From Acidihalobacter ferrooxydans (GTDB taxonomy: Bacteria; Pseudomonadota; Gammaproteobacteria; DSM-5130; Acidihalobacteraceae), in the NCBI RefSeq assembly GCF_001975725.1, contig NZ_CP019434.1:1141041-1205040 (forward strand): 64,000 nt of DNA, written 5' to 3'. Below are positions 9,915 to 62,742 of the stretch, one piece after another (positions within the stretch are counted from its first letter, which is position 1; every line of letters starts with the position of its first letter). The position numbers and the translations under genes are program-made. The notes under the pieces are model-generated. The model saw only the letters and a list, made by a program, of their open reading frames with translations. It was not told where the DNA came from and searched no databases.

Positions 9915-10486
9915 CCTCTCATCCCCGCCTACACGGGGGGAACGCCAGCCGCCGAGTGCCGAAAACATGGCTCCCCTCTCATCCCCACCTACACGGGGGG
10001 AACGCCGTCGCCGTAGTCATAGGTCACGTCCAGCTTCCTCTCATCCCCGCATACACGGGGGGAACGTAGGCGTCGTGGTTCGACTCAGCAGGACCACCTC
10101 TCATCCCCGCATACACGGGGGGAACGAATTCGCTCATCATTTCACCGCCCGCGTCCACCTCCCATCCCCGCATACACGGGGGGAACCGTCATTACTGGAT
10201 GTGCTTAGGTGCTGAGGACCTCTCATCCCCGCATACACGGGGGGGAACGACACATTCACGCAATTCGTTTGTGAAGCTCACCTCTCATCCCCGCATACAC
10301 GGGGGGAACTGACTGGATGTACAACGCCATGTTCCTCTATGACCTCTCATCCCCGCATACACGGGGGGAACGGATGCCCAAGCGGATTTTCCAGCCCTCT
10401 CATCCCCGCCTACACGGGGGGAACGGACACTTGCGGCCGCTTTTACCCGGACGATTCCCTCTCATCCCCGCCTACACGGGGGGAAC
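9915..10486 (-). CRISPR. CRISPR array 1: 10 repeats, 9 spacers (type IV-linked repeat)
   Basis: Ten 29-base repeats start at 9915, 9975, 10037, 10097, 10158, 10219, 10281, 10343, 10396 and 10458. On the minus strand each begins GTTCCCCCCGTGTA and ends GCGGGGATGAGAGG, forming a short CCCC/GGGG hairpin. Variants: the first, second, ninth and tenth have GTAGGC in place of GTATGC (the second has a further change), the fifth ends GGGAGG, the sixth has a seventh G. Spacers are 31-33 bases except the eighth (10372-10395), only 24. The repeat family is shared with array 2 beside the csf genes. An A/T-rich flank on the high-coordinate side (from 10487) could hold the leader, which would put transcription on the minus strand. 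No cas1 or cas2 is nearby. Confidence 0.95.
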
Positions 10487-11489
10487 CCTTCTTCCAGTCC
10501 TTTGAAAAAAGAGCAAATTTTAGGGCCACTTCAAAGTACCGACTTTTTGACGCCTCACAGGGGAACGCTTTCTTGCCCACAAGCCGCCACCGGCCAATGA
10601 AAAAGCCGGTGGCGGCGCACGGCCAGAATCGATACTTGATACCGACCAGCGTGACGTTCTGCTTGGTCGTGCTATTGGGTTCGACCGCCGGCCCGATCGA
10701 GGTCTGGATAACCTGCGACTGGCCGTACTGGAACTTCGTGTGCATGTAGGACAGATACACGGTAAGGTTCGACAGGGGCGTGTAGTCCACCTCGACGCCG
10801 TACTGCGTCCACGGCTTGCTACCGAGGTAAGCGGTGTCATTTGAGATGTTGCTGGTCATGTAGGCGCCGCTGGTGTGGCCGGCCTTATACTTGACCTGCA
10901 GCACCAGCGGAATACCCGGCTGCGGCACCGCTCCAGCGAGGGTGAGCCCGACACCGTAGTATTGGTTGTAGTAATTCTCAGTGTAGCCACCGATGCCCTG
11001 TATCGCCCGGTGCCAACCGTGCTGACCGATGAACACGTTCGGGATGACAGCGAAATCCTTGATCGGCGAGAACCCACCGCGGATGGCGACATGCCCGTCG
11101 GCGGAGAACGAATGCGTCGTGGACGACGATGGCGTGAGCTTACCGGTTGACGTGTTTTGCAGGTAGCCATTGTAGGTCGTGTCGCCAGCACCGGCGTTAT
11201 AGGCCACGTTGTAGCCAAAATACGAGCCCATGCCGGAATACCCAAGATGGAACGCCGTGATGTTGCCGGTCTGGGTATCCAGCGGGTTAGGCAAACCCGA
11301 ACCGCTCGTGGCGTGTTCGGCATAGTTTTGGTGGAACTGGCCGGCGCCGATGCTGATGCCGCTCATGGCCTGCTGAATGGGCTTGGGCACGGGGCCGAAG
11401 AAGTTGCCGACGCCATAGGCGAACGCGCTCGTGGACAGTCCGGCGCCCAGGGCGGCGGCCAATGCAAGGGACAGGTGTTTCTTGTTCAT
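10443..11489 (-). CDS. Outer-membrane beta-barrel protein, C-terminus running into CRISPR array 1
   Basis: A 348-residue frame. Residues 1-24 are a signal peptide (ALAAALGAGLSTSAFA). The rest alternates short amphipathic strands rich in Tyr/Gly, as in porin-like barrels. The natural end should be near TLVGIKYRFW (about residue 292), since barrel proteins finish on an aromatic residue. Here the frame has no stop there; it continues through a perfect hairpin and the array's flank, and stops only inside the last spacer/repeat. The last ~55 residues are therefore not barrel sequence. Ligand unknown. It lies 23 bases after traB on the same strand. Confidence 0.75.
   Translation of the reverse strand: MNKKHLSLALAAALGAGLSTSAFAYGVGNFFGPVPKPIQQAMSGISIGAGQFHQNYAEHATSGSGLPNPLDTQTGNITAFHLGYSGMGSYFGYNVAYNAGAGDTTYNGYLQNTSTGKLTPSSSTTHSFSADGHVAIRGGFSPIKDFAVIPNVFIGQHGWHRAIQGIGGYTENYYNQYYGVGLTLAGAVPQPGIPLVLQVKYKAGHTSGAYMTSNISNDTAYLGSKPWTQYGVEVDYTPLSNLTVYLSYMHTKFQYGQSQVIQTSIGPAVEPNSTTKQNVTLVGIKYRFWPCAATGFFIGRWRLVGKKAFPCEASKSRYFEVALKFALFSKDWKKGSPRVGGDERESSG
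10583..10616 (-). terminator. Perfect 12-bp hairpin at the end of the outer-membrane protein gene
   Basis: GCCGCCACCGGC and its exact complement are separated by a 10-base loop. It sits where the barrel protein should end. On the minus strand no T-run follows (TTGTGGGC), so termination may be weak and transcripts could continue into CRISPR array 1. Confidence 0.5.
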
Positions 11490-18638: not shown

Positions 18639-22592
<3,954 letters not shown>

Positions 22593-47636: not shown

Positions 47637-49394
47637 ATGACCTATTGCGGGGCTGGCATGCTGCGTCTTATGAAACAGCGCATGCCATCAACGCCCCGTT
47701 GGCCGCCCGTCGAAGGCGGGCTGCCTGCCGTAGGCCTGGACGAGCTACTGGAAAGCCAATCGGAGCTGCTTACGATCCTGCGCCATTCGGTCGGTGAAGA
47801 AGACGCCCTGTGGCAGGCCCACTACTGGCCGGTAATCCAGCGCTTTGCGAGTTGGGCACATCTGCTGCCGGCCTCGCGCGAGCACCACCACTACGGCGCC
47901 GGCGGTTTGTGGCGGCATTCACTGGAAGCGGCACGCGCGGCGGCCGACTTGTTTGAACGGCATGTGGTGGGACAAAACCTGCCGCGAGAAGAACGCATTC
48001 GGTATCGACGCGGTATGCGCTGGGCCTGTGTGTGCGGCGCTTTGTTGCACGACTGCGCAAAACCCATGACCGATGTTGAGGTCACCGATGATGCCGGGCG
48101 TGTCTGGAACCCTGTTCAGGGGAGCTTGACGGCCTGGCTGAAAGCGACGGGCGCCACCCGCTACACCTTGCGCTGGCGAACCGGAAGAGCCGGCCAACAC
48201 GCCATCGGCGCGGCCATCATGTTGCCGCGCGTCATGGGGTGGCCCGCGCTGATCTGGTTGCAAAGCCAATGCGGTCAAAGCGTGTTGCTGGAGCTGACCA
48301 ACGCGCTCATGGACGACACGCGACAAGGGCTTCTGCCGGAGGTCATTCATGAGGCCGACCGGCTGTCCGTGGCCGACGACCTGAGTCGTCGCCCCGATAT
48401 CAACGAAGACCATCGGATCACCGGCGTCGCGGCCGAAGGGCATATTCTTGATGCGGCCCGGTCGTTGATACGCGAAGGCCGGTGGCGCATCGGCGGAAAG
48501 GTCTGCGCCTTGGCCGACGATGGCGATGTGTTGCTGGCCTGGCCGCGCGCGGGAACGGACATCGGCAACTGGCTGGCCGAGCATCAGATTCCAGGAGTGG
48601 TCAGAACGCCGGAGTCGGTTGCCAATGTGCTGCTGGATACGGGCAAGGCGATACCGTGTGGTGATGAATTGCACTGGAAGTTTCGCTCGCAGGAAGGCGT
48701 GGTGATCTCGGGGCTGCGCATCAAAGCCGGGACGCTGGAGCTGGAGGGCGCCCCCGTCGGCGGGCGCTGGGTTAACGACGAGGCCGCCAGTACCCAGGAA
48801 AAGACCGCGCCAGCCTCAAAACCGAAAGCGGACACGGAACCCGAGCCGGAACCCGCACAGGAAGCGGCGCCGTTGGACAAAGACCTCCACCGCAAAATCG
48901 CATCGTGCCCCGTGGCCGCGGCGATATTCGACGACCTGGCCCGCGGCGAAAAGCCCATTGACTGGTTGTATCGCTTTGAAAGCGATTGGCACCTGCGCTA
49001 CCCGGATGCATTCAAGGGCTGCGGCATGTCGCCCATGCAGGCGGCCAAGGAGTTGGTTGCCGCGCAACTGGCGGACTCCGATGGCAAACGCATTGCCCAG
49101 GAGACCGGCGACACACGCGGTGTACGACTGCGTTTCACGGGGAACCCGTTGCCAACAGAAGCGGCATTCGAAGCCTTGCCCCACTGGTTCGAAAAACAGA
49201 CCGAAGGTGTTGTCGACATTCGGGGTATCCGGTTTATCGAATCCGGCCGCGCACGCCGCTGGGCGGCTTTGTTCGGTGACCCGGAAGAGGTGATTCATGC
49301 CCTGCTCGACGCGCAGCGCATTGTCGAAGGCAGCATGAAAGACCGTGGGAACAAGTCCTACGTTCGACTGGAGAAAAACTCGGATGAAGCATAA
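47637..49394 (+). CDS. traI: MobH-type relaxase TraI (TraI_2 domain)
   Basis: A 585-residue protein. N-terminal TraI_2/HD-like domain with HHHYGAGGLWRHSLEAARAA (about 88-107) and LLHDCAKPMTD (about 138-148); C-terminal domain with FESDWHLRYPDAFKGCGMSP. It should nick the origin of transfer and lead the strand into the recipient. traD overlaps its end. Other Met codons near 47658 and 47670 are possible starts. Confidence 0.9.
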   Translation: MTYCGAGMLRLMKQRMPSTPRWPPVEGGLPAVGLDELLESQSELLTILRHSVGEEDALWQAHYWPVIQRFASWAHLLPASREHHHYGAGGLWRHSLEAARAAADLFERHVVGQNLPREERIRYRRGMRWACVCGALLHDCAKPMTDVEVTDDAGRVWNPVQGSLTAWLKATGATRYTLRWRTGRAGQHAIGAAIMLPRVMGWPALIWLQSQCGQSVLLELTNALMDDTRQGLLPEVIHEADRLSVADDLSRRPDINEDHRITGVAAEGHILDAARSLIREGRWRIGGKVCALADDGDVLLAWPRAGTDIGNWLAEHQIPGVVRTPESVANVLLDTGKAIPCGDELHWKFRSQEGVVISGLRIKAGTLELEGAPVGGRWVNDEAASTQEKTAPASKPKADTEPEPEPAQEAAPLDKDLHRKIASCPVAAAIFDDLARGEKPIDWLYRFESDWHLRYPDAFKGCGMSPMQAAKELVAAQLADSDGKRIAQETGDTRGVRLRFTGNPLPTEAAFEALPHWFEKQTEGVVDIRGIRFIESGRARRWAALFGDPEEVIHALLDAQRIVEGSMKDRGNKSYVRLEKNSDEA

Positions 49395-51192
49395 CGCCAA
49401 TTTTTACGAGCCCCCCTTCAGGCCGCCCTATGAACAACAGGCGGCCTGGGGTTGGGCGATTGCGTCGGCAACCACGCTGGCGACCACCTTTGCGTTTCAT
49501 TTACCGCTGGTTGCCGGAGTCTCGGCCACGGCCGTCGCGGGAACAATCGGCGCCTGGCGCTGGTATCAGGGTGAACCGTATGCGCTCAACAGAAAGCGGT
49601 TGATGCAGGCGGACAAGCTCTGGTTTATCAGTCGGGACAAGGCAAACCAATGGTATCAATGGGCCTCCGCGCAAAATAAGCTCTGGTTGGGACGAGGCTA
49701 TGAGGTCACGCCGCAAGCGGCTGAAAAAATCCGCATTATCACAAGCCGGGGCCTGAATGAAGCGCTCGGTCAGGCGCCTGGTCAGGACTCACCGATGGGC
49801 TGGATTCAACAAATCGAACCGGCCAAGCCCATTGTGGTGGACTTCGGCGACCTGGACGGCCATGTGATCATTGTGGGGTCCACGGGGCGGGGTAAAACGC
49901 GTTGTTTTGATCACATTATCGGCCAGGCCATCGCACGGGGAGAGCCGGTCATTGCGCTAGACCCCAAGGGTGACAGCGACCTTGAAGAAACGATGCGCGA
50001 CGCCTATCGCCGGGCCGGACGCCCGGAGGCGTTTGCGGCCTTTCGGCCCGCGCGCCCGGAAAACAGTGTGCGCATCGATCCGCTGGCGAATTGGGGGCGA
50101 GCGACCGAGGTTGTCTCGCGCATCATCGCGCAGGTTGAAGCCGACGGTTCCTTCAAGGCCTTCGTCTGGCGCGTGATGAACAACATCGTGCAGGGCGAAA
50201 TCGCCGCGGGGCGCAAACCAAACCTGCTGAGTCTGCGTCGCCTGGTCGAACGCGGCATCGACGGGCTCCTGCTTGAAGTGCTCAAAACCTATTGCACGGA
50301 AAATGCCAAGCCGGAGGAATACTTAGGCTACGTCAACAACGCGATGACCAAAAACGGCCGCGAGGTCGACGGCTACGTGGAATTTTATGAACGCGTACTG
50401 GTCCGGCGAGCGCCCAGTCTGTCTGTCGAGGGACTGATCGCAGACTACCGTCACGACAAGGAGCATTTCTCGAAAATGGTGGTCTCGTTGACACCCATTC
50501 TGTCGATGCTTACCACACCGCCGCTGGATGAGCTGCTCTCGCCGCAACCGCGTGCCGGTGATAACCGCGAGATCATCACGATTGACAAGGTCGTCAAACA
50601 GGGCCGCGGACTGTATGTCTCGCTCGCCTCGCTATCGGACCCCACGGTCGGTTCAGCGATCGGTTCGATTCTGCTCTCGGACGCGGCCGCTTTGGCCGGC
50701 GAACGCCTGGAGTCGGCTATCACCGAACCGCGCGTGACCCTGCTGGGCGACGAGATAGCCGAAATCACGAACGACCAGCTCACGCAGATTCTGAACAAGG
50801 GCCGTGGCGCCGGTATTCGTGCGGTGATCGCCACGCAAACGCTCGCTGACCTCGAAGTGCGCCTGGGCTCAAGAGCCAAAGCGCTGCAACAGGTCGGCAA
50901 CCTCAACAACATCATCGTCTTTTCTTTGAAAGACCCGGATACGGCCAAGCAGATTGCCAGCAGTTTTCCGAAATACCAGGCGCGGCAAATCAACCGTTCC
51001 TACTCGCAGTCCATTCAGGCTCATCCAGGGGACACCTGGGGCGGGGGGTACGGGGAAAGTCTGCAGCAACAGGACGTGGATCTACTGCCCGCCGACCTGC
51101 TGATGCGGCTGCCCAAATTGCACTACGTGGCGCAATTCTCGGACGGTCGTGTGGTCAAGGGCCAGATACCGATTGTAGGAAATCCAAAATGA
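49384..51192 (+). CDS. traD: Type IV coupling protein TraD
   Basis: A 602-residue ATPase. Two N-terminal membrane segments (about 20-60), Walker A GSTGRGKT (about 160-167), Walker B region TLLGDEIAEI, and the motif LNKGRGAGIRAVIATQTLADLE typical of SXT-type TraD proteins. It links the relaxase-DNA complex to the secretion channel. ATG 49384 lies inside the end of traI. Confidence 0.93.
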   Translation: MKHNANFYEPPFRPPYEQQAAWGWAIASATTLATTFAFHLPLVAGVSATAVAGTIGAWRWYQGEPYALNRKRLMQADKLWFISRDKANQWYQWASAQNKLWLGRGYEVTPQAAEKIRIITSRGLNEALGQAPGQDSPMGWIQQIEPAKPIVVDFGDLDGHVIIVGSTGRGKTRCFDHIIGQAIARGEPVIALDPKGDSDLEETMRDAYRRAGRPEAFAAFRPARPENSVRIDPLANWGRATEVVSRIIAQVEADGSFKAFVWRVMNNIVQGEIAAGRKPNLLSLRRLVERGIDGLLLEVLKTYCTENAKPEEYLGYVNNAMTKNGREVDGYVEFYERVLVRRAPSLSVEGLIADYRHDKEHFSKMVVSLTPILSMLTTPPLDELLSPQPRAGDNREIITIDKVVKQGRGLYVSLASLSDPTVGSAIGSILLSDAAALAGERLESAITEPRVTLLGDEIAEITNDQLTQILNKGRGAGIRAVIATQTLADLEVRLGSRAKALQQVGNLNNIIVFSLKDPDTAKQIASSFPKYQARQINRSYSQSIQAHPGDTWGGGYGESLQQQDVDLLPADLLMRLPKLHYVAQFSDGRVVKGQIPIVGNPK

Positions 51193-51443
51193 AGAGTCAG
51201 AAACGAACCCGCCCCATCAAGCCGCAGCGCGCGCCCTCGCGTCGGGACTGGCCGAGCGGTCTGCGCAAAATCGCCCGGCGGATGCGTCTGTACGACGAAC
51301 TTGAACTGCTGCGGACTATCTCGCCTTCGACGACGCAATGGTTGTTGCAGCACTGGAACAAACCACAAGGCAAGCGGGCACTTGAGATCATCAAAAGGCA
51401 AGGCGCCGCGGCCTTTGTCGAGCTGAATCAGGAATCGCTTTAA
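51189..51443 (+). CDS. Small basic protein in tra operon
   Basis: An 84-residue basic protein (TRPIKPQRAPSRRDWPSGLRK) with a helical C-terminus; starts within the traD stop (ATGA) and ends one base into the next gene. No family recognised; ICE tra operons often have a small gene here. Confidence 0.6.
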   Translation: MKSQKRTRPIKPQRAPSRRDWPSGLRKIARRMRLYDELELLRTISPSTTQWLLQHWNKPQGKRALEIIKRQGAAAFVELNQESL

Positions 51444-52021
51444 TGGCGGCAGACGGCATCCTGAACAACGAAAAAGAACGCCGGAAACGTATTCTGGGGT
51501 TCGGCTTTCTGGCGGTTATTGCCGTGCTGCTGCTCTCGCCCTATCCCTTGTTGATGCATCTGCAGCAAACGCAGGAGAACATGGTTATCCAGGCCTTCGG
51601 CGATGGCGTGGATCAATGGATTGCCGGGATTGCCTCAAGTATCAGCCGGGCAACCGGCATCATCCAGGCGGCACAGTCCGCGCGCGGGTTTTGGGGCCAG
51701 CGCCTGGACGTGATTGCGCTGGGTGTTTATATCGTCAGTTGGCGTGTCATGTACGCGCTTTTGGCCCTCTCACTGGCCGCGCCCTTACTGGCCGCTGCGG
51801 TATGGGATGGGTTGATGAACCGGCGCATTGCACAGTGGCGGTACGAGTACACGAGCAATCGCTTGCACTATCTCTCTCGCGGCGCCATCGGCTGGTTTGT
51901 GGACGTGCTATTGCTTTTGCTCGTCTTCCCGTTGCCCATGCCGCCCGAAGCGCTGGTCGTGGTCATGTTTTTACTCGGCGGCGCACTGCATCAGTGGTCC
52001 GCCTCATTTCAGAAACGTTAA
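51443..52021 (+). CDS. DUF4400 inner-membrane protein of conjugation operon
   Basis: A 192-residue protein with four hydrophobic segments (about 17-35, 85-110, 115-135, 150-185) and a soluble periplasmic loop. Size, topology and position after traD match the DUF4400 membrane protein of integrative conjugative elements, whose exact role is unknown. Confidence 0.75.
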   Translation: MAADGILNNEKERRKRILGFGFLAVIAVLLLSPYPLLMHLQQTQENMVIQAFGDGVDQWIAGIASSISRATGIIQAAQSARGFWGQRLDVIALGVYIVSWRVMYALLALSLAAPLLAAAVWDGLMNRRIAQWRYEYTSNRLHYLSRGAIGWFVDVLLLLLVFPLPMPPEALVVVMFLLGGALHQWSASFQKR

Positions 52022-53672: not shown

Positions 53673-54098
53673 TTGTCAGCACGAATCAAAAGCTTGAATC
53701 AGTTGGGGGCCGGGGCCTGGCGCGTTCACCACGACCCGCGCCAGGTGCGCAAGCCCAGGCGGCTGCAGACCGGGCCACGGTCATCGCCGCCGGAGACTAT
53801 CTTGAGCGCGGCGCTGAAAAAACGCTTCGGGTCCGCAGTGACCCTGCAATATCGCGGTGCGGTGGCCGGTCGACGGTTCGTGCTCGACGCGGCGATTGTG
53901 CAGGCCCTGATCGCCATCGAGGTTGACGGCTGGCAGCATCATGGACGTTTCCTTTCGGACTTCAAGCGCGACCGGGAAAAAGACCGCGCCCTGACTCTGG
54001 CAGGCTGGCGCGTGCTGCGATTCACGGCCGGTGAAATCCGCGGTGACGTGCAAAAGTGCGTTCAGGTGATCGAGCGCGCGCTATGGATGAACCGCTGA
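53673..54098 (+). CDS. DUF559/VSR-like endonuclease-fold protein
   Basis: A 141-residue protein with the restriction-endonuclease-like core of DUF559: PPETILSAALKKRFG, then VLDAAIVQALIAIEVDGWQH (Asp and Glu-x-Asp metal ligands), and RDREKDRALTLAGWRVLRF. Such proteins are related to very-short-patch repair nucleases. TTG start at 53673. It ends the tra operon. Confidence 0.7.
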   Translation: MSARIKSLNQLGAGAWRVHHDPRQVRKPRRLQTGPRSSPPETILSAALKKRFGSAVTLQYRGAVAGRRFVLDAAIVQALIAIEVDGWQHHGRFLSDFKRDREKDRALTLAGWRVLRFTAGEIRGDVQKCVQVIERALWMNR

Positions 54099-54179: not shown

Positions 54180-54584
54180 TGTTGGATACCAGGTGCGGTG
54201 GTCGCCCCACGCAAACCGGCGCGTCATCAGCCAGCGACAGACCCTTGATGCGCGTCTGACCCATGCCGATGGCCGTTATCCCAAGGTGATGAAGACGCTG
54301 GCCAAGACCGATCTGCTGCTCCTGGACGACTGGGGACTGAACCCCTGGATACCGAGTCGCGGCGTGACTTGCTGGAACTGCTCGACGACCGTCACGGCCA
54401 ACGCTCGACCCTGGTCACCAGTCAGCTACCCGTCGATCACTGGCACGAGATCATCGGCGATCCGACCCTGGCCGATGCCATCCTCGACCGTCTCGTGCAC
54501 AACGCCTATCGGATCACCCTCAAGGGTGAGTCCATGCGCAAACGGCGAGCCAGGAACTTGATCGTCTCCACCGACTCCGAGTAA
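54180..54584 (+). pseudogene. istB: IS21-type istB remnant with frameshift
   Basis: Two frames together read [20 protein letters not shown] (Walker B) then [20 protein letters not shown] and [20 protein letters not shown], the C-terminal half of the IstB ATPase. The frame is broken near 54340. The Walker A half and istA are absent. Confidence 0.85.
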
Positions 54585-54621
54585 CAATGCAGACCCTGCG
54601 TCGCTTCGCTCCGACTGCCCC

Positions 54622-54714
54622 GGCCGAATCACCGTGGAGCCGGTGGCCGAATCACGCTGGAATCACCGGCCGAATAATCCTGGAATCGGTGGCCGAATCG
54701 CGTGGAATACGCAG
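54622..54714 (+). repeat. Four 23-bp tandem repeats beside the istB remnant
   Basis: GGCCGAATC or GGCCGAATA begins at 54622, 54645, 54668 and 54691; each unit continues with a TGGA(A/G) element. IS21 elements carry multiple end repeats that bind the transposase, so this is probably the right end of the lost IS. From here to 54852 nothing else is recognised. Confidence 0.7.
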
Positions 54715-54852
54715 GATATTGGCCGGGTTTCATGGACATAGAAACCTCATGTGTGTTTGAGGTCTATTTTCCGCGTGTCCGAAATAATGCAAGCGGCCGA
54801 ATAACCGCAGGATAGGCGGTTACTCGGTCAATCGAAGGGCCAAATTGATTAC

Positions 54853-55003
54853 CCTCTCATCCCCGCATACACGGGGGGAACTTGCTCCAACTCTTGCATG
54901 AGGCAGGCCATCTCCTCTCATCCCCGCCTACACGGGGGGAACTGCAGCCGCTGCATCAGCGCGATCCATGCCCGCCTCTCATCCCCGCGTACACGGGGGG
55001 AAG
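54853..55003 (-). CRISPR. CRISPR array 2: 3 repeats, 2 spacers
   Basis: Repeats at 54853-54881, 54914-54942 and 54975-55003 with two 32-base spacers. Same repeat as array 1: on the minus strand GTTCCCCCCGTGTA ... GGATGAGAGG. The third differs at its outer end (CTTCC for GTTCC) and has GTACGC. It lies directly downstream of the csf operon on the same strand, 83 bases after csf5, so it may be read from the operon. Confidence 0.93.
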
Positions 55004-55085: not shown

Positions 55086-55610
55086 TCAGGCAGCCTCCGA
55101 TTCCAGCGCGTTTACCGGCACGACAACCGGCATGCCAAAGCCAAACGCCTTTGACCGGCCGACGCCGCGCCCCATCGTCTCTTCCGCCGCCGCCGCATCG
55201 GTGATCGTCGCATCAAAGTGCAGATGCCAGGCCCATACCGGGTGACGCTTAATCTCGGATTTGACCGTATCGGCCCGGTGAATGGCGATGTCGCCAAACC
55301 CCGGCATACGCCCATCCAGCCAGTCCTTCAATTGGTCCTGGTCGACCAGGCGTTCACGCTTGCCGCGGGTCACCGCCCGCACGAGCAACAGCACGGCCAC
55401 ACGCTGGCCTGCGACAAACTGTCGTACAGGCAAGCTATGCTCGGTCGGCAGGTCTTTACCTCTCACCAGGGTTTCTCCGTCCCCTATATTTATGTACAAG
55501 AAGTCGCGTTCGGCTTTCTCCGGAACGCCGAGCGCCGCCCAAACAGCCTTGTGTATCTGGTTTGTTGTCCGCGCCTCGCCGGGCAATCTGATTGTCGCTT
55601 CTCTGAACAT
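55086..55610 (-). CDS. csf5: Csf5/Cas6-family crRNA-processing endoribonuclease
   Basis: A 174-residue protein. The C-terminal glycine-rich loop GRGVGRSKAFGFGMPVV is like that of Cas6e-type nucleases. A candidate catalytic His occurs within HPVWAWHLHFDA. The N-terminal RAMP fold starts FREATIRLP. It should cut the repeat transcript below its hairpin, leaving an 8-base handle ending GATGAGAGG-like sequence. ATG 55610 has GGAG upstream. Last gene of the csf operon, next to array 2. Confidence 0.85.
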   Translation of the reverse strand: MFREATIRLPGEARTTNQIHKAVWAALGVPEKAERDFLYINIGDGETLVRGKDLPTEHSLPVRQFVAGQRVAVLLLVRAVTRGKRERLVDQDQLKDWLDGRMPGFGDIAIHRADTVKSEIKRHPVWAWHLHFDATITDAAAAEETMGRGVGRSKAFGFGMPVVVPVNALESEAA

Positions 55611-55621
55611 TGGATTCTCCA

Positions 55622-55759
55622 TCAAGTGATGCTGTCATTTGGGTCAAACACATCCGGTTCATAGATCGTGACACCGTCTTTGTCGTACGCAAGGAGCCTG
55701 ACAATATCGGACCGTCCATCGGCGAAAAACGGGAACCGTTTTGGAATAGCCTTGAACAT
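55622..55759 (-). CDS. 45-residue protein between csf4 and csf5
   Basis: MFKAIPKRFPFFADGRSDIV, then an acidic end (YEPDVFDPNDSIT). It starts 11 bases after the csf4 stop and its stop overlaps a potential csf5 start. The ribosome site is weak. It could be a small type IV accessory protein, or only a spacer that couples csf4 and csf5 translation. Confidence 0.45.
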   Translation of the reverse strand: MFKAIPKRFPFFADGRSDIVRLLAYDKDGVTIYEPDVFDPNDSIT

Positions 55760-55769
55760 CCAATCTCGG

Positions 55770-58067
55770 TTATATCGCGCAACCGTTTTTTTTGCTGGCT
55801 TTGCCCAATACCGGGTCGTCCTTGAGGAACTGAGTCCGTTCATACTGGCTCAGTGGGTTCGCGCGCGGGTCGAGTATCCAGATGTTGCCGACATCATCCG
55901 GGTCACGAATAAGGCGACCGATGCCTTGACGCGCTTTCGAAAACCCGATGTATCCATTGCGTACGTGCTCATAGCTCGCCAGCTGACTTATGTCCTTGGC
56001 CCGCTCGGGGTTCATGACATTCATTGCGAGTAGGCGATCCTGACGAAGCTTGTGCCCATGGATGCGTACCGGGTCGATTGGCGGATACGGCGAGCGAGTC
56101 AAAACCACGTCCTTGATGATCTGCGTGCCGTCTGCCGCGCGCAGGCTGATGCCGTGCCATGCGGCAGGAGTGATGAGCAATCGCCCGGCAGGCGCGCGGC
56201 GCAGTTCATCAATTCGTTCCGCCAGCGCCTCATAGCCGCGCTCGGTATGCCAGAGCGCATTCAGACGAATGCCGGTCTTTTCAACCATGGCCCGGAGCGC
56301 TTCGGTTTCCTTGTATGACCCGGTGAGCACCAAAGCGGCCGCGGTCTGCTCCTGCGCAGACTGTTCGATGAGGCACAATGCGGATACGGCCAGCGAGAGC
56401 CAGGCTGGATTGAGAACAGCCTGCGGCTTGTCCTCAGGATCATCATCGGTATCTTCCGGTTTAAGAAACACGTCCGGCCACGGCTGGTATTTTAACGTTT
56501 TCGCATTGAGCGAAACCGGACAATAAATATGATTGACGACGCCGTAGCCGTCGCGCCTGTTTTCGATGCGGTCGCATTGCGGTTCGATGATTTTCTCGCA
56601 AAGCACCCTGCATGCCTGGTTCAAGCCGAACGCGATCCGCGTGGTAGAAAAATCCCCGTTCGCTGAGGTCAAGGTAGCCGATGTGAAAAGGACGGTGTCA
56701 TGATGCGATTCCATCACCTTGCCCTGTTTGGTTACCCCCTTGGACGCGGCCCAGTGGCGTCCGATGATACGAGCGGGGTACATATCGCGAATCTGATACG
56801 AACCCCAGGATCTGATCGGGGTGTAGGCAATAGCGCAGATGGTTTCGCGCGTTGCGCCCTGGTCGAAAGTCTCGTAAGCATGGGACCAGTCTTCCGCGTC
56901 GTCTGAGAAATCCGATGTATGACCCGCAAGTGCAGAGACTTTTGTTGCGATGTGCCCCAGTGCGGACAATAACGCCTCCCGCGTGGGTTGCTCTATATCG
57001 CCGCTGTCAAAGCCCAGGATACGGTCTTCCGGCTTCGTTACGCTATCGTCGCCAAACCTTTTCTTGACCAGATCGTCGAGCAGGGCAATCGATTTGTCGC
57101 AGGCTGAGATAGCCTGATTGGCGGCGTCTTTAGCTTCGGCTGTCCACGGCCCGTTCTTGAGCGCTGCGGCAAGTTTGAGCTTGAGCGTGCGCGGTCGCAT
57201 GCGCCGCGTCGTCATGCTTTCGGCCATCCCTTCAATTTGATCCGCCTCATCGAAGACGGTGATATCGATAGGCTTTTCACCATCGAGAACCTTGTGCCAA
57301 TGGCGGGCGTCGATGAGTCCCATGGCGTGCGTATGCAAAAGGACACGGGCATCCTTGGATGCATTTTTCGCGCGTAGGTAACACTGATTCAGGTGCCCGG
57401 CGATATTTTTGTTGTCGATCCAGATATCGTCGGCCGACACACCTTCCGGAATGGCGTACGCATCCTTGATGAGCCCGGATACGCCCGGAATATCCGCCTC
57501 CACTGCGGCCAGCCATTTTGAGAATGCGACCCAATCGGGGTTTTTCAGCATATCGGGGTTTTCTTTCCGGATAGCCTTGATGACTTCGAACCCGCGAGGC
57601 ACGCTGACATAGGCCCGACGCGCCCGGATAAAGGCCGCGTAAACATCCCCAAGCCCCATTCGGCGCACAACCTCTCGCATGACCGCAATGTCGGAACGGC
57701 GGTCTTCCGGGTGCGACCAGTCAGGTACGCGTTGGGCACGTCGCGCGGCATCGCCCCACATTTGATCTTGCAGCGCCAGCGTGTGCGTAGAGATCCCCAC
57801 GCGCTTGTCATACAGCTGCGCAAAAATGGCGACGGGGATTAAATAGCCCAGGGTTTTGCCGGTGCCGGTGCCGGCCTCGATGAGGCCAACGCCCGTTCTC
57901 CGCGTCCAATCGGTGTCCGTGTTTTTCCCGCGCCCTGTGAGCAGCAAGTCGGTGATGCAAAGTGCGTACTCTAGTTGCTGGTTACGCAGCGAGTAGCCAG
58001 TCAGTTCAGGCAGAATATTCCTGAACGCGTTCTCGACAAGCGATTTGATGTTGACCTGCGCATCCAT
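55770..58067 (-). CDS. csf4: CRISPR-associated DinG-family helicase
   Basis: A 765-residue XPD/DinG-type SF2 helicase. Walker A EAGTGTGKT at 64-72, Walker B FDEAD in DITVFDEADQIEG, and motif VI GIGRLIRDPDDVG near the C-terminus. The four Cys that bind the Fe-S cluster in XPD and classical DinG are not seen, as usual for CasDinG. In type IV-A systems this 5'-3' helicase is recruited to the target and is required for interference. Its start lies three bases after the csf2 stop. Confidence 0.93.
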   Translation of the reverse strand: MDAQVNIKSLVENAFRNILPELTGYSLRNQQLEYALCITDLLLTGRGKNTDTDWTRRTGVGLIEAGTGTGKTLGYLIPVAIFAQLYDKRVGISTHTLALQDQMWGDAARRAQRVPDWSHPEDRRSDIAVMREVVRRMGLGDVYAAFIRARRAYVSVPRGFEVIKAIRKENPDMLKNPDWVAFSKWLAAVEADIPGVSGLIKDAYAIPEGVSADDIWIDNKNIAGHLNQCYLRAKNASKDARVLLHTHAMGLIDARHWHKVLDGEKPIDITVFDEADQIEGMAESMTTRRMRPRTLKLKLAAALKNGPWTAEAKDAANQAISACDKSIALLDDLVKKRFGDDSVTKPEDRILGFDSGDIEQPTREALLSALGHIATKVSALAGHTSDFSDDAEDWSHAYETFDQGATRETICAIAYTPIRSWGSYQIRDMYPARIIGRHWAASKGVTKQGKVMESHHDTVLFTSATLTSANGDFSTTRIAFGLNQACRVLCEKIIEPQCDRIENRRDGYGVVNHIYCPVSLNAKTLKYQPWPDVFLKPEDTDDDPEDKPQAVLNPAWLSLAVSALCLIEQSAQEQTAAALVLTGSYKETEALRAMVEKTGIRLNALWHTERGYEALAERIDELRRAPAGRLLITPAAWHGISLRAADGTQIIKDVVLTRSPYPPIDPVRIHGHKLRQDRLLAMNVMNPERAKDISQLASYEHVRNGYIGFSKARQGIGRLIRDPDDVGNIWILDPRANPLSQYERTQFLKDDPVLGKASKKNGCAI

Positions 58068-58069
58068 GA

Positions 58070-59182
58070 TCAGTCCTCCGTGCCGCCAACTGCGACATCA
58101 AGCATCTTGAGTTCACTGTTTTCGCGTACGCCGGGCCATTCGGGGAAGCCACGCTCGGCCTGCATGTCGTAGCTCGCGAGTGCATCGCTCAGCAAGGTTG
58201 ACCCGCCGTTTTCCTCAAGAACAAAACCCTCTGAGTCAGACATGACCACGCTTCCGACCAGGGTCGCGGGGTTGTAATCGTGAACGGGCTTGACCTTAAC
58301 CTGATAGTGCATGTGGACCCATCCGCAATCATGATGCCAATGCCCGCCCAGTCTTGGCATGGACGCACCCGCACGCAGCGCCGCCAGAACAACGGCCAGT
58401 TCGTTTTGCGAGGCCCCGTACAAGGACATTCTGTGCTCGAACGCCGTGCCCGCAGGGAAATACTCGTAGCCCATATACAGATTCTGGATAGGTGTATGTC
58501 CGGTCTTTTTCGAGTTTTCGGCTTCGCGAACGGCGGTTAGCTTGACGGATGCAAGCTCATCGTTTCCGGCCTTCTTGGCCGCATCGATTTCCTTTTTCAG
58601 TTCCTTGATCTGCTTGTCGATTTCCTTCTTGTTGCTGCTATGCGTGCGGTCAAGGAACAACCGCGCCTCAATGCGGCGACGGCTGTTTTCGTCGAACTGC
58701 GAAATAATCTCGGGGGTGCGCACCGCGTCGTTGACCCGGACACCGCCGACAAATGGCGGCACGATATTGCGGTCCAGCGGGTAGAGGTTGCCGGCGCCGA
58801 ACCGCGATCCGATTCGAAACGAGCCGAACGCGGATTCGACGGGGTTAGTCCCGCGGAGTTTCTGCAGCGCACCGACATCGACAGTGCCGCCCGCAAAGGC
58901 TTCCGCCCCACCGGCTGCCAGCAGATAATAGGTTTCTCCGGGCATGGATTGCGCCGGCAAATGACGCATGATGTCGCGCGTCAAGGCTCGGCGGAGAAAT
59001 CCGAGCACGCCAGAGGCAGGATAGTAGGGCTGCTGCTGTTCAATCGAGGGCGCCTTCGGATACAGACGCGGCAAACGAGACGGATTATGCTTGTCAGCCC
59101 CGCACTTGACCATCGTAACCGTCAGCGGCGTTATCGCGGTCACTGAGCCTTCGAAGAAAACATTTATTGCATGATCAGACAT
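58070..59182 (-). CDS. csf2: Csf2 (Cas7-family) backbone protein
   Basis: A 370-residue RAMP protein. Typical Csf2 start (FFEGSVTAITPLTVTMVKCG), then RLPRLYPKAPS ... YYPASGVLGFLRRALTRDIM, and later FRIGSRFGAGNLYPLDRN. It forms the helical backbone of the crRNA complex. A charged helical insertion (KKEIDKQIKELKKEIDAAKK, about 205-225) is notable. ATG 59182 is chosen because the RAMP strand begins directly. Confidence 0.9.
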   Translation of the reverse strand: MSDHAINVFFEGSVTAITPLTVTMVKCGADKHNPSRLPRLYPKAPSIEQQQPYYPASGVLGFLRRALTRDIMRHLPAQSMPGETYYLLAAGGAEAFAGGTVDVGALQKLRGTNPVESAFGSFRIGSRFGAGNLYPLDRNIVPPFVGGVRVNDAVRTPEIISQFDENSRRRIEARLFLDRTHSSNKKEIDKQIKELKKEIDAAKKAGNDELASVKLTAVREAENSKKTGHTPIQNLYMGYEYFPAGTAFEHRMSLYGASQNELAVVLAALRAGASMPRLGGHWHHDCGWVHMHYQVKVKPVHDYNPATLVGSVVMSDSEGFVLEENGGSTLLSDALASYDMQAERGFPEWPGVRENSELKMLDVAVGGTED

Positions 59183-59213
59183 GGGTTTCACCTTTTCGTA
59201 TGAGTGGATAAAA

Positions 59214-60188
59214 TCAAGCGTCGTTGATGATTGCGTTGACGATGTTGGTTTCAGCCGGCGTGGTCGGATACAGTTCACGCAGGCGACGACCAGGAAGACG
59301 TTCGCGCAGGATTTCGCGCACGCGTCGTTCCAATTCTCTGTTGCTTGGGGATTTAAGCAATTTCAGAAACGGTTTTTTCGCCTCAACCGGGAAGTCCTTA
59401 AAAACCTCCGCGTAATACCGGTATCGCGAGAAATTTATTAAGCCCAGGCTTTCCTTCTCGACAAAAACCATTTCGGGGCAATTCTTTGAATTGACTCGAT
59501 TGACTCGCAATAGCGATGCCGTTTTGCGAAAGCCAGGCGCCATTTTGAACAACAGATATCGACCGGTGGGGCGTTTGTGACCGGCAACGATTGCCATTGC
59601 GATATCCGACAATGACTGGTCGGTGGTTTCCAGACCAAATGATTTGACGCCGGAGATAAATTCGTCGACGGGAAGCCCGCATATCTTTCCTGAAGAATCC
59701 GGGTTCAAGACGACCTTGTGTGTCACGCCGTCCATGCGTTGCAACTGTTCGGCGCGGTACCAGGGCCCCGAGATCAAGGGGTGCTCCTTATACTGGTTGT
59801 ATCGTTTGCCGGATTTTTTCTCGAACTCGTCGTCAAACAGGTTGCCGGCGTTAAGAAAAATCACAACTTCTGATTCGTCAACGTAGATTCCGGCAACCCC
59901 ATTCATGGGGTTATAGACAAAACCATATTCCCCCGATTTTTCGTTTTTCTTCGGGTTTTTAACGCCAAATACCGGGTGCGAGATCGACAGCACCTGGTCA
60001 GCCGGATGCCGACCATTGACGCCAAGCACATCTAATACCTTGGACTTCGTATCTGGCGTCACCTGGTCGGGCGGCACGATCTTGTGACCGAATTGGTCAT
60101 ATAGAAGAAACAGCGCCTCTGCCATTTCGAATTGCACATGCGGCACTTCGACCTGACCAACGATTCGACTTTCAATCAACATGAACAT
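59214..60188 (-). CDS. Csf1/Cas8-like large subunit without zinc finger
   Basis: A 324-residue protein between csf3 and csf2, the place of the large subunit. There is no CxxC pair; only two isolated Cys, so the zinc finger of classical Csf1 is absent. Segments such as NPMNGVAGIYVDESEVVIFL and a basic C-terminal helix bundle (RELERRVREILRERLPGRRL) are visible. By position it should recognise the PAM and cap the crRNA 5' end. Assignment rests mainly on context. Overlaps csf3 by 17 bases. Confidence 0.65.
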   Translation of the reverse strand: MFMLIESRIVGQVEVPHVQFEMAEALFLLYDQFGHKIVPPDQVTPDTKSKVLDVLGVNGRHPADQVLSISHPVFGVKNPKKNEKSGEYGFVYNPMNGVAGIYVDESEVVIFLNAGNLFDDEFEKKSGKRYNQYKEHPLISGPWYRAEQLQRMDGVTHKVVLNPDSSGKICGLPVDEFISGVKSFGLETTDQSLSDIAMAIVAGHKRPTGRYLLFKMAPGFRKTASLLRVNRVNSKNCPEMVFVEKESLGLINFSRYRYYAEVFKDFPVEAKKPFLKLLKSPSNRELERRVREILRERLPGRRLRELYPTTPAETNIVNAIINDA

Positions 60189-60891
60189 CCTCCTTCAGGA
60201 TCAGTACATGGGTCTTGGGTACGTCAGGCACCGCACATAATGTTTTTGGTGAATGCTTATAGCTGGGCTGCCATGACTGAGTGTCGGTATTGTGTCGAAC
60301 AGCGTCAGAACCACCCAGCGCATGCCATATTTCCAGTGGAATCGGGCGCATCGGGCGCTTGTGGACATCGACCAGGGACCGGTCCTCGTCGATGAGCGAC
60401 ATGGAAACATCGGCAATCTCACCGGTTCCGATATGGCGACGCTTACCGATTCCAGGAATCAACTGCATCAAGTGCTCACAGTGCTCGGCATCGCCCGACC
60501 CGAAATACGTCAGGCGGGTCTGTTCATACAGACCTTCGGCATTAAGCACGCAAAAGGCGGAACGATTGTCCACCATCGCCAATGTGCCAGTGCTTGAGTT
60601 GCTGAAATTGAGTTTTTCGTCCTTCCACTTGATTCCGGGTTCATCGAGGTCCCGCTTCGAAAGATGTTTCGAAACACCGACTTCAAAAAACACCGGGGGC
60701 CGATGGACCACCGGCAGCGAACCGTGGAAAACACCATCAGTGCAGTCAAGCGGCAGATCGCGAATCCGGCCGATATCACCTGTCTGCATCCAGACAACCC
60801 ACGACAGCAGCGCATCGAGCGTGGGGTAAAAGGGCTGCGCGATTAACGGTGATTTCAGCCTCACGTCCAAGGCAAAAGGGCGGTGCTCCAT
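60172..60891 (-). CDS. csf3: Csf3 (Cas5-family) protein
   Basis: A 239-residue RAMP protein starting FALDVRLKSPLIAQPFYPTL, with DALLSW and a glycine-rich loop LIPGIGKRRHIGTGEIADVS at about 142-161. Csf3 binds the crRNA 5' handle together with the large subunit. First gene of the operon; a perfect dyad lies just upstream (60921-60944). Confidence 0.8.
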   Translation of the reverse strand: MEHRPFALDVRLKSPLIAQPFYPTLDALLSWVVWMQTGDIGRIRDLPLDCTDGVFHGSLPVVHRPPVFFEVGVSKHLSKRDLDEPGIKWKDEKLNFSNSSTGTLAMVDNRSAFCVLNAEGLYEQTRLTYFGSGDAEHCEHLMQLIPGIGKRRHIGTGEIADVSMSLIDEDRSLVDVHKRPMRPIPLEIWHALGGSDAVRHNTDTQSWQPSYKHSPKTLCAVPDVPKTHVLILKEDVHVD

Positions 60892-61210: not shown

Positions 61211-62275
61211 ATGGACCCTATTGCCCACAGGCTCGTTGAACTCAATCACAACACGCCCTTTACAGACGCCAACCTGGCTCCCGGACAACCGCTGATGATC
61301 CGAACTCCGGCGGGGTATCAGCCGGCCGATGACGAGCCACTGGACGCGCAGGCCATTGAGACCTTTCTGGCTTTGCCGGGCATGGCGGGGGAGGGCTGGC
61401 GCGAACGCATGCAGAACAACGGGGGGTCCTGGGGGTTTGCCAGAACAACGCGCACGAGCCGGTTGCGTATCAGTCTTTATGAGACCGGCGGTGAGAAGCA
61501 CACGTTGCGGGTGGCGATTCGTCGGCTACCTCTGCATGCGCCGGATTTTGAGGACATCGGGCTGCCCTCCCACATTACCAATGTTGTCGAACAGGGCCGC
61601 GGGCTGTTTCTAATTACCGGACCCACGGGCGCCGGCAAATCAACCACGCTGGCCTCGCTTTTGGAGCGCATCAACCGTTCGCACGCGCTGCACATTCAGA
61701 CCATCGAAGAACCCATCGAGTATGTCTTCAAGCCGAACAAGTCGGTGATTTCGCAGGTTGAAGTGCCGGTGAATGTTGACAGTTTCGAGCACGGCGTGCA
61801 TGCCGCGCTGCGTCATCGTCCGGACATTATTGCAATCGGCAAAATGCGCGACCGGCAGACCGTCAGCGCTGCCTTGCAAGCCGCCTCCAGCGGGCACTTT
61901 GTTTTGGGCACGCTGCATACCGCGTCGGTGGACGAAACCGTCGATGCCGTTTTGCAGTTCTTCGACGGACAAGAGTCCGAGCAAAAACGAATGCTTCTTG
62001 CCAGTGCGCTCATCGGAATCATCAGTCAAACATTGTTGCCGGATGTGCGCGGTGAAAAGCTGGTTCTTGCGCATGAGCTGATGTTGATGACGCCGGGCAT
62101 TGCCAACTTGATTCGGCAGAACAAAATCCAGCAGCTTTCCGGAGCCATCGAAGAGGGGCGGTCCTCTGGCATGTGTACGCTTAACGATTCTTTGAACCGC
62201 CTGGTCAGAGAGGGGCGCGTCAGCAAAACGGCTGCGTTTCGAGCCGCCTACACACGCGAGGGGCTGAACCTTTGA
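61211..62275 (+). CDS. PilT-like secretion ATPase
   Basis: A 354-residue ATPase of the PilT/VirB11 class. Walker A GPTGAGKSTT (about 134-143), Asp box TIEEPIEYVF, Walker B-region PDIIAIGKMRD, His box GHFVLGTLHT. Length and the LITGPTGAGKST context fit PilT/PilU retraction motors. In this element it may drive a conjugative pilus. An in-frame ATG at 61181 is an alternative start. Confidence 0.88.
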   Translation: MDPIAHRLVELNHNTPFTDANLAPGQPLMIRTPAGYQPADDEPLDAQAIETFLALPGMAGEGWRERMQNNGGSWGFARTTRTSRLRISLYETGGEKHTLRVAIRRLPLHAPDFEDIGLPSHITNVVEQGRGLFLITGPTGAGKSTTLASLLERINRSHALHIQTIEEPIEYVFKPNKSVISQVEVPVNVDSFEHGVHAALRHRPDIIAIGKMRDRQTVSAALQAASSGHFVLGTLHTASVDETVDAVLQFFDGQESEQKRMLLASALIGIISQTLLPDVRGEKLVLAHELMLMTPGIANLIRQNKIQQLSGAIEEGRSSGMCTLNDSLNRLVREGRVSKTAAFRAAYTREGLNL

Positions 62276-62742
62276 AACGGGCGATAGTGATCGGAGCTTT
62301 GTTGCTGACGCCCGTGTTAGCGCAGGCGCAGATGGCAAAACCAACCTGGCCGACCTACGCCTGTTTGATGCGTGCCGCACACGCCTATCACCTCAGCCCG
62401 TGGGCCATCATCGGCATTATGAAAGCCGAAGGCGGCAAGCCGGGCCAAATCGTTCGCGATGCCAACGGCACTTTCGACATGGGGCCGATGCAGATCAACT
62501 CGCTCTGGCTGCCGCGCCTGGCATCTCAAGGCATCACCGCGCAGGAGCTGGCCTCCAATGGCTGTTTGAACGTCAAGGTTGGAGCGGCCATTTTGCGGCT
62601 CAACATCAACCAGGCCGGCGGCAATCTGGTCAAGGGAATCGGCTGGTATCACTCCCGCATACCCACACTGGCGCAGCAATACCGATTGCGCGTTTCACGG
62701 CAGTTGGAACGCATCGCCAATACCCCATCGTCATCGAACTGA
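62272..62742 (+). CDS. Lytic transglycosylase of transfer/pilus system
   Basis: A 156-residue exported protein. Signal peptide 1-19 (VIGALLLTPVLAQA). SLT fold with catalytic Glu in IIGIMKAEGGKPG, then FDMGPMQINSLWLPRL and GIGWYHSRIP. It would open peptidoglycan for the pilus or DNA channel (VirB1/PilT class). TTG start overlapping the ATPase stop. Confidence 0.88.
   Translation: MKRAIVIGALLLTPVLAQAQMAKPTWPTYACLMRAAHAYHLSPWAIIGIMKAEGGKPGQIVRDANGTFDMGPMQINSLWLPRLASQGITAQELASNGCLNVKVGAAILRLNINQAGGNLVKGIGWYHSRIPTLAQQYRLRVSRQLERIANTPSSSN

Follow-up and report, generated by a model that had tools for sequence, protein, structure and literature searches.

Can a type IV-A CRISPR (clustered regularly interspaced short palindromic repeats) system do without the zinc finger of its large subunit? 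The question is raised by an operon of Acidihalobacter ferrooxydans on contig NZ_CP019434.1, where a stretch of 64,000 nucleotides (positions 1,141,041 to 1,205,040; hereafter the window, whose numbering is used unless stated otherwise) was analysed. On its minus strand, from 60891 to 55086, six tightly packed open reading frames (ORFs) follow one another in the order csf3, large subunit, csf2, dinG, small ORF and cas6. The large subunit is probably a diverged homologue of Cas8/Csf1 that has lost the finger, as judged from its sequence. The operon itself is a real and apparently intact IV-A system of a diverged lineage, borne on an integrative and conjugative element (ICE), and the variant may have been described earlier. 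Its genes are:

60172 to 60891, minus strand: csf3 (Cas5-like), 239 amino acids (aa), first gene of the operon; PADLOC Csf3_0_IV, E = 4.2e-27
59214 to 60188, minus strand: large subunit, 324 aa, probable Cas8/Csf1 without a zinc finger; no family match, collinear similarity to Cas8
58070 to 59182, minus strand: csf2 (Cas7-like), 370 aa from the likely start, the ORF reaching 59278; PADLOC Csf2_0_IV, E = 1.3e-38
55770 to 58067, minus strand: dinG/csf4 helicase, 765 aa; PADLOC Csf4_0_IVA, E = 3.1e-76
55622 to 55759, minus strand: small ORF of 45 aa when read from its likely start (at its longest, 55843 to 55622)
55086 to 55625, minus strand: cas6e-like endoribonuclease, 179 aa; Pfam CRISPR_assoc, 1.9e-10, and PADLOC Cas6, 1.1e-11

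All frames are intact and tightly spaced, and Shine-Dalgarno-like sites precede csf3, the large-subunit gene and dinG. The ATG codons at 59182 and 55759 are the more likely starts of csf2 and the small gene, because long overlaps are then avoided. The csf2 product also matched NCBIfam cas7_csf2 (5.5e-10, under the curated cut-off of that model). The genes and their order are those of a first-pass annotation made from the sequence alone, except that the last gene, there called csf5, is Cas6e-like instead of Csf5 proper by both Pfam and PADLOC; its product carries a conserved histidine within an IHK motif. The small ORF, whose stop codon shares bases with the probable start of cas6, has no family match in Pfam, PADLOC or NCBIfam and is possibly a coupling ORF only. 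An Rfam scan of the operon returned no match.

The large-subunit gene sits between csf3 and csf2. Its product contains only two cysteines, Cys170 and Cys237, which lie far apart, and no four-cysteine finger is possible; the zinc finger is truly absent, as the first-pass annotation had held. The protein matched nothing in PADLOC or NCBIfam, gave only a chance-level match in Pfam and only chance matches in a PDB sequence search, and had no relatives in plasmids, IMG/VR or four genomes of the same family. Similarity to Cas8 was seen in direct alignments. The block HPVFGVKNPKK..GVAG aligns with APELMGVENPKK..GVGA of the Klebsiella pneumoniae Cas8 (BLAST E = 0.033; pairwise and multiple alignment), and RKTASLL aligns with RKTGALM of Aeromonas. 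Residues 179-323, the C-terminal half, align with the Cas8 of the same-family genome G002 (shuffle P = 0.0028). When about 120 non-panel proteins were scored against a panel of eight Cas8 proteins, the large subunit ranked first among them. Its C-terminal part is strongly basic (isoelectric point 10.4), as in most Cas8 relatives.

In the IV-A3 complex, the protospacer-adjacent motif (PAM) is held by the zinc-finger domain of Cas8 together with the thumb of Csf3, and K155 of Cas8 pinches the target strand (PMC11519345). Replacing K155 by alanine causes a pronounced loss of protection, whereas K79A and Y51F do not (PMC11519345). In local alignments K155 corresponds to K222 of the large subunit and K79 to K81; the finger region, which includes Y51, has no counterpart. 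The arginine-rich Csf3 loop that is essential in K. pneumoniae is likewise not conserved, the loop region aligning poorly. Given a counterpart of K155, the missing finger with its Y51 and the unconserved arginine loop, strand handling by the large subunit looks kept and PAM reading looks changed.

The remaining effector proteins carry recognizable IV-A features. A lysine-rich helical stretch of Csf2 is found also in Csf2 of Aeromonas, Klebsiella and Raoultella and in part in that of Halomonas (alignment). By its position in the sequence it apparently represents thumb helices alpha8/alpha9, which in IV-A3 Csf2 enclose the non-target strand against the C-terminal domain of Cas8 and contact DinG (PMC11519345). 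The charged helical insertion that the first-pass annotation pointed out in Csf2 is therefore present but no sign of novelty; it was rejected as a special feature because the corresponding stretch is common to IV-A3 Csf2. For DinG, the best solved relative is the DinG of the IV-A3 complex 8s35 (E = 7e-16). The Walker A motif GTGTGKT of the operon's DinG is intact at residue 66, compared with 164 in the IV-A1-like protein G237, and the N-terminal extension of IV-A1 is absent. The best plasmid relative of Csf3 comes from Methylobacter sp. YRD-M1 (31% identity).

The closest matches found for Csf2, Csf3 and DinG reach no more than ~27-33% identity, and none of the three proteins falls inside the IV-A3 clade in its tree, although supports are weak and branches long. 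DinG is split from an IV-A1-like pair (G236 and G237) at 100/98 and lies outside the Aeromonas-Klebsiella-Raoultella clade; like this one, the DinG proteins outside that pair are assigned by PADLOC to Csf4_0_IVA. Csf3 groups with Methylobacter at 81/91, and Csf2 stands outside the Alteromonas-Aeromonas-Klebsiella group (91/87). The system thus probably forms a deep single lineage within IV-A, outside the IV-A1 group, with its place among the other IV-A systems loosely supported.

The operon carries the marks of type IV-A: csf2, csf3, a CasDinG helicase, Cas6 with an array, and a location on a mobile element with spacers against plasmids and other mobile elements. Among the features of IV-A3, the Cas7 thumb helices alpha8/alpha9 are present at the level of sequence only and the zinc-finger N-terminal domain of Cas8 is missing. 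It departs from IV-A1 by the lack of the DinG extension and by its separate clade, and from IV-A2 (no Cas8, or HNH fused to DinG) by its large-subunit gene and the absence of HNH in a Pfam scan. No marks of IV-B, IV-C, IV-D or IV-E (CysH, Cas10-like, RecD or a Csf3-Csf1 fusion) were found, csf3 and the large-subunit gene being separate ORFs. Clear placement within IV-A1 to IV-A3 beside an ordinary Csf1 was not obtained. The distinct, DinG-keeping type IV lineage proposed by the first-pass annotation accordingly gains from the divergence and the DinG tree, but not from the Csf2 insertion or the gene order, which had been called unusual; among the IV-A loci examined, nearly every one has its own order. 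That the present order was not seen in the other loci means little alone. A GTDB scan by Csf2 patterns, not by the large subunit, recovered one Klebsiella relative and is no measure of rarity.

Compared with IV-A3 of K. pneumoniae plasmids (8rc2, 8s35-8s37), the system shares the thumb-helix stretch of Csf2, Csf3, a Cas6e-like Cas6, a DinG without the IV-A1 N-terminal domain and plasmid-targeting spacers. It differs in a finger-free large subunit that is ~60 aa longer, in a Csf2 only ~28% identical, in a Csf3 arginine-rich loop that does not align, in its location on an ICE and in gene order (large subunit-cas6-dinG-csf3-csf2 in IV-A3). The plasmid IV-A system of Methylobacter sp. YRD-M1 has the nearest Csf3, the best local DinG match and csf3 followed by the large subunit; its large subunit, however, has a CxxC..CxxC finger, and its order is csf3-large subunit-cas6-csf2-dinG. 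In Sulfuricystis the IV-A order is large subunit-cas6-csf3-csf2-dinG, again unlike that found here. The plasmid systems of Halomonas sp. KO116 and Pseudomonas paraeruginosa share the PADLOC family of DinG and a finger-free candidate large subunit by csf2. In contrast, their Cas6 is of the Cas6f type, the candidate gene is divergent from csf2, and its product shows no clear similarity to the large subunit described here.

Finger-free candidate large subunits beside csf2 or cas6 were noted at L005:6050-6847(-), L012:3377-4045(-), L015:12745-13470(-) and L014:6864-7505. These plasmid candidates escape the PADLOC Cas8 models, and the one in Halomonas is a homologue of the one in P. paraeruginosa. 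The P. paraeruginosa plasmid locus also has an adjacent Cas1f (L012:8674-9543), so that this type IV system brings an adaptation gene of its own.

Against what is the system directed? Three arrays with one repeat were found, the first of which adjoins the operon downstream and was missing from the first-pass annotation:

54853 to 55003, minus strand: CRISPR array C, 3 repeats of 29 nucleotides (nt), 2 spacers of 32 nt
9915 to 10487, minus strand: CRISPR array B, 10 repeats and 9 spacers with a leader; repeat the same as in array C
1,088.5 kb of the genome: CRISPR array A, beside virB/trb genes and ~107 kb from the operon; repeat the same as in arrays B and C

The repeat occurs in 22 copies genome-wide, all in these three clusters, with 19 spacers in total; copies vary at one position, and the repeat folds into a 6-bp hairpin. 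Arrays A and B have a common leader sequence. Spacer B8 (33 nt) is identical at 32/33 positions to repC of IncQ plasmids (E = 9e-5), a match present in ~700 plasmid records; with B8 removed, the remaining spacers gave one weak match. Two spacers match the ICE that carries the arrays: A6, duplicated as A7, its trbC/virB2 pilin gene (27/32; chance expectation ~2e-5), and B3 a lipoprotein gene between array A and the window (29/33; ~4e-7). Because these matches are imperfect, with 4-5 mismatches, A6/A7 and B3 are read not as self-targeting but as aimed, presumably, at alleles in rival, related ICEs. Neither spacer of array C had a protospacer beyond chance. Published type IV spacers are also enriched for conjugative plasmids (PMC11656645). 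Two further arrays with this repeat lie on contig C6 of G002 (L082, ~5.0 kb and 17.6-17.8 kb); no recognisable csf operon was found within the 20 kb examined, and they are possible orphan arrays.

Several results weigh against a Cas8 that has lost its finger and serves a working system. With an IV-A3 Cas8 profile the large subunit does not score above shuffles, and an hhalign profile comparison with Cas8 gives only P = 0.018. The Cas8 motif alignments were spotted post hoc, and programs differ in placing the middle blocks. AlphaFold, whether given the large subunit by itself or together with one Cas8 relative, returned no usable model (predicted local distance difference test, 32 and 31). The repC protospacer, the sole good one, has the 5' flank AGC and not the AAG of IV-A3, which fits a changed PAM but is no proof of it. 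The genome has a single Cas1, part of a Cas4-Cas1 fusion at 3.27 Mb, so no adaptation module lies near the arrays or the operon. The failing profiles, the missing finger, the uninformative prediction and a length of 324 aa, which exceeds most Cas8 relatives, would all suit an unrelated DNA-binding protein that has replaced Cas8 and recognizes the PAM or opens the strands by a new fold. We regard such a replacement as rather improbable: short blocks, the NPKK and RKT motifs among them, follow the order of IV-A3 Cas8, the protein outranks the decoys, and genuine zinc-finger Cas8 proteins of other lineages escape the IV-A3 profile equally.

That the operon is an ordinary IV-A3 member whose Cas8 merely lost its finger, with no separate lineage, also appears unlikely. 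The thumb-helix stretch, the DinG architecture and the best PDB match are all IV-A3-like, but the positions of Csf2, Csf3 and DinG in their trees, on long branches, speak against it. A cassette that has lost its function and is decaying within the ICE would be in keeping with the degraded IS21 remnant nearby, the two spacers of array C and the varying repeat position; it is hard to reconcile with intact, tightly spaced frames bearing Shine-Dalgarno-like sites, an intact Walker A motif and Cas6 histidine, and 19 spacers in three arrays with one near-exact plasmid match, and we give it very little credence. We therefore favour, as the probable explanation, a IV-A large subunit that is a Cas8/Csf1 with its N-terminal finger lost and its central and C-terminal DNA-handling parts kept. 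It is a possibility, though a doubtful one, that this subunit reads the PAM finger-free in a new way or replaces Cas8, in which case the system would be a new IV-A variant whose PAM is altered or relaxed.

With a finger-less Cas8, the system could work as follows. Given the identity of the repeats, Cas6e would cut pre-CRISPR RNA from three arrays on one ICE. By analogy with IV-A3, the resulting CRISPR RNA would assemble with Csf3, several copies of Csf2, the large subunit and Cas6. The complex would open target DNA, with the large-subunit lysine pinching the target strand; the basic C-terminal domain of the large subunit and the Csf2 thumb helices would guide the non-target strand to DinG, and DinG would unwind the DNA and repress genes of rival elements without cutting. 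Csf3 and the loop that remains in the large subunit would have to read the PAM, which may be relaxed or different. The spacer matches point to plasmids and related ICEs as the targets. With guide RNAs that match genes of competing plasmids and conjugative elements, the system looks like a weapon in conflicts between mobile elements.

The surroundings of the operon place it in a cargo slot of an ICE:

47637 to 52021, plus strand: ICE conjugation genes encoding a TraI_2 protein, a TraD/TraG coupling protein and DUF4400 (Pfam)
62272 to 62742, plus strand: SLT lytic transglycosylase (Pfam SLT), bounding the cargo slot on the far side; part of the collinearity with contig C4 of G002

Array A is counted with the same element because it, too, lies among conjugation genes, and the operon and arrays A, B and C would then belong to one large ICE. 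Contig C4 of G002 runs collinear to this stretch; in its counterpart of the slot, flanked by TraD/DUF4400 and the SLT gene, a different IV-A cassette lies in the same orientation. That cassette has a zinc-finger large subunit, the order cas6-array-csf2-dinG-csf3-large subunit, a DinG 23% identical and another repeat. Two dissimilar cassettes in the same slot of related ICEs suggest that whole IV-A cassettes are exchanged as cargo at one site. Beside array C, the window contains short 23-bp direct repeats (GGCCGAATCA...) at 54620-54702, just outside the array, a remnant 79% similar to the IstB gene of IS21-like elements (54254-54717) that adjoins it, and a DUF559/Vsr-like nuclease gene (53673-54098) with a 67% identical homologue elsewhere on contig C4 of G002. 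Farther away, at 18639-22592, a ribonucleotide reductase large subunit is interrupted by an intein with Hint and LAGLIDADG domains.

The zinc-finger domain of Cas8 touches the PAM in the solved IV-A1 and IV-A3 complexes. From a working system that lacks it, one could learn whether the domain is dispensable and which component takes over PAM reading; the spacers against repC and the pilin gene offer direct, testable targets. If the proteins without a finger that neighbour csf2 or cas6 in Halomonas, P. paraeruginosa, Paracoccus and Sulfuricystis are of this kind, systems thought to be without Cas8 may carry one after all.

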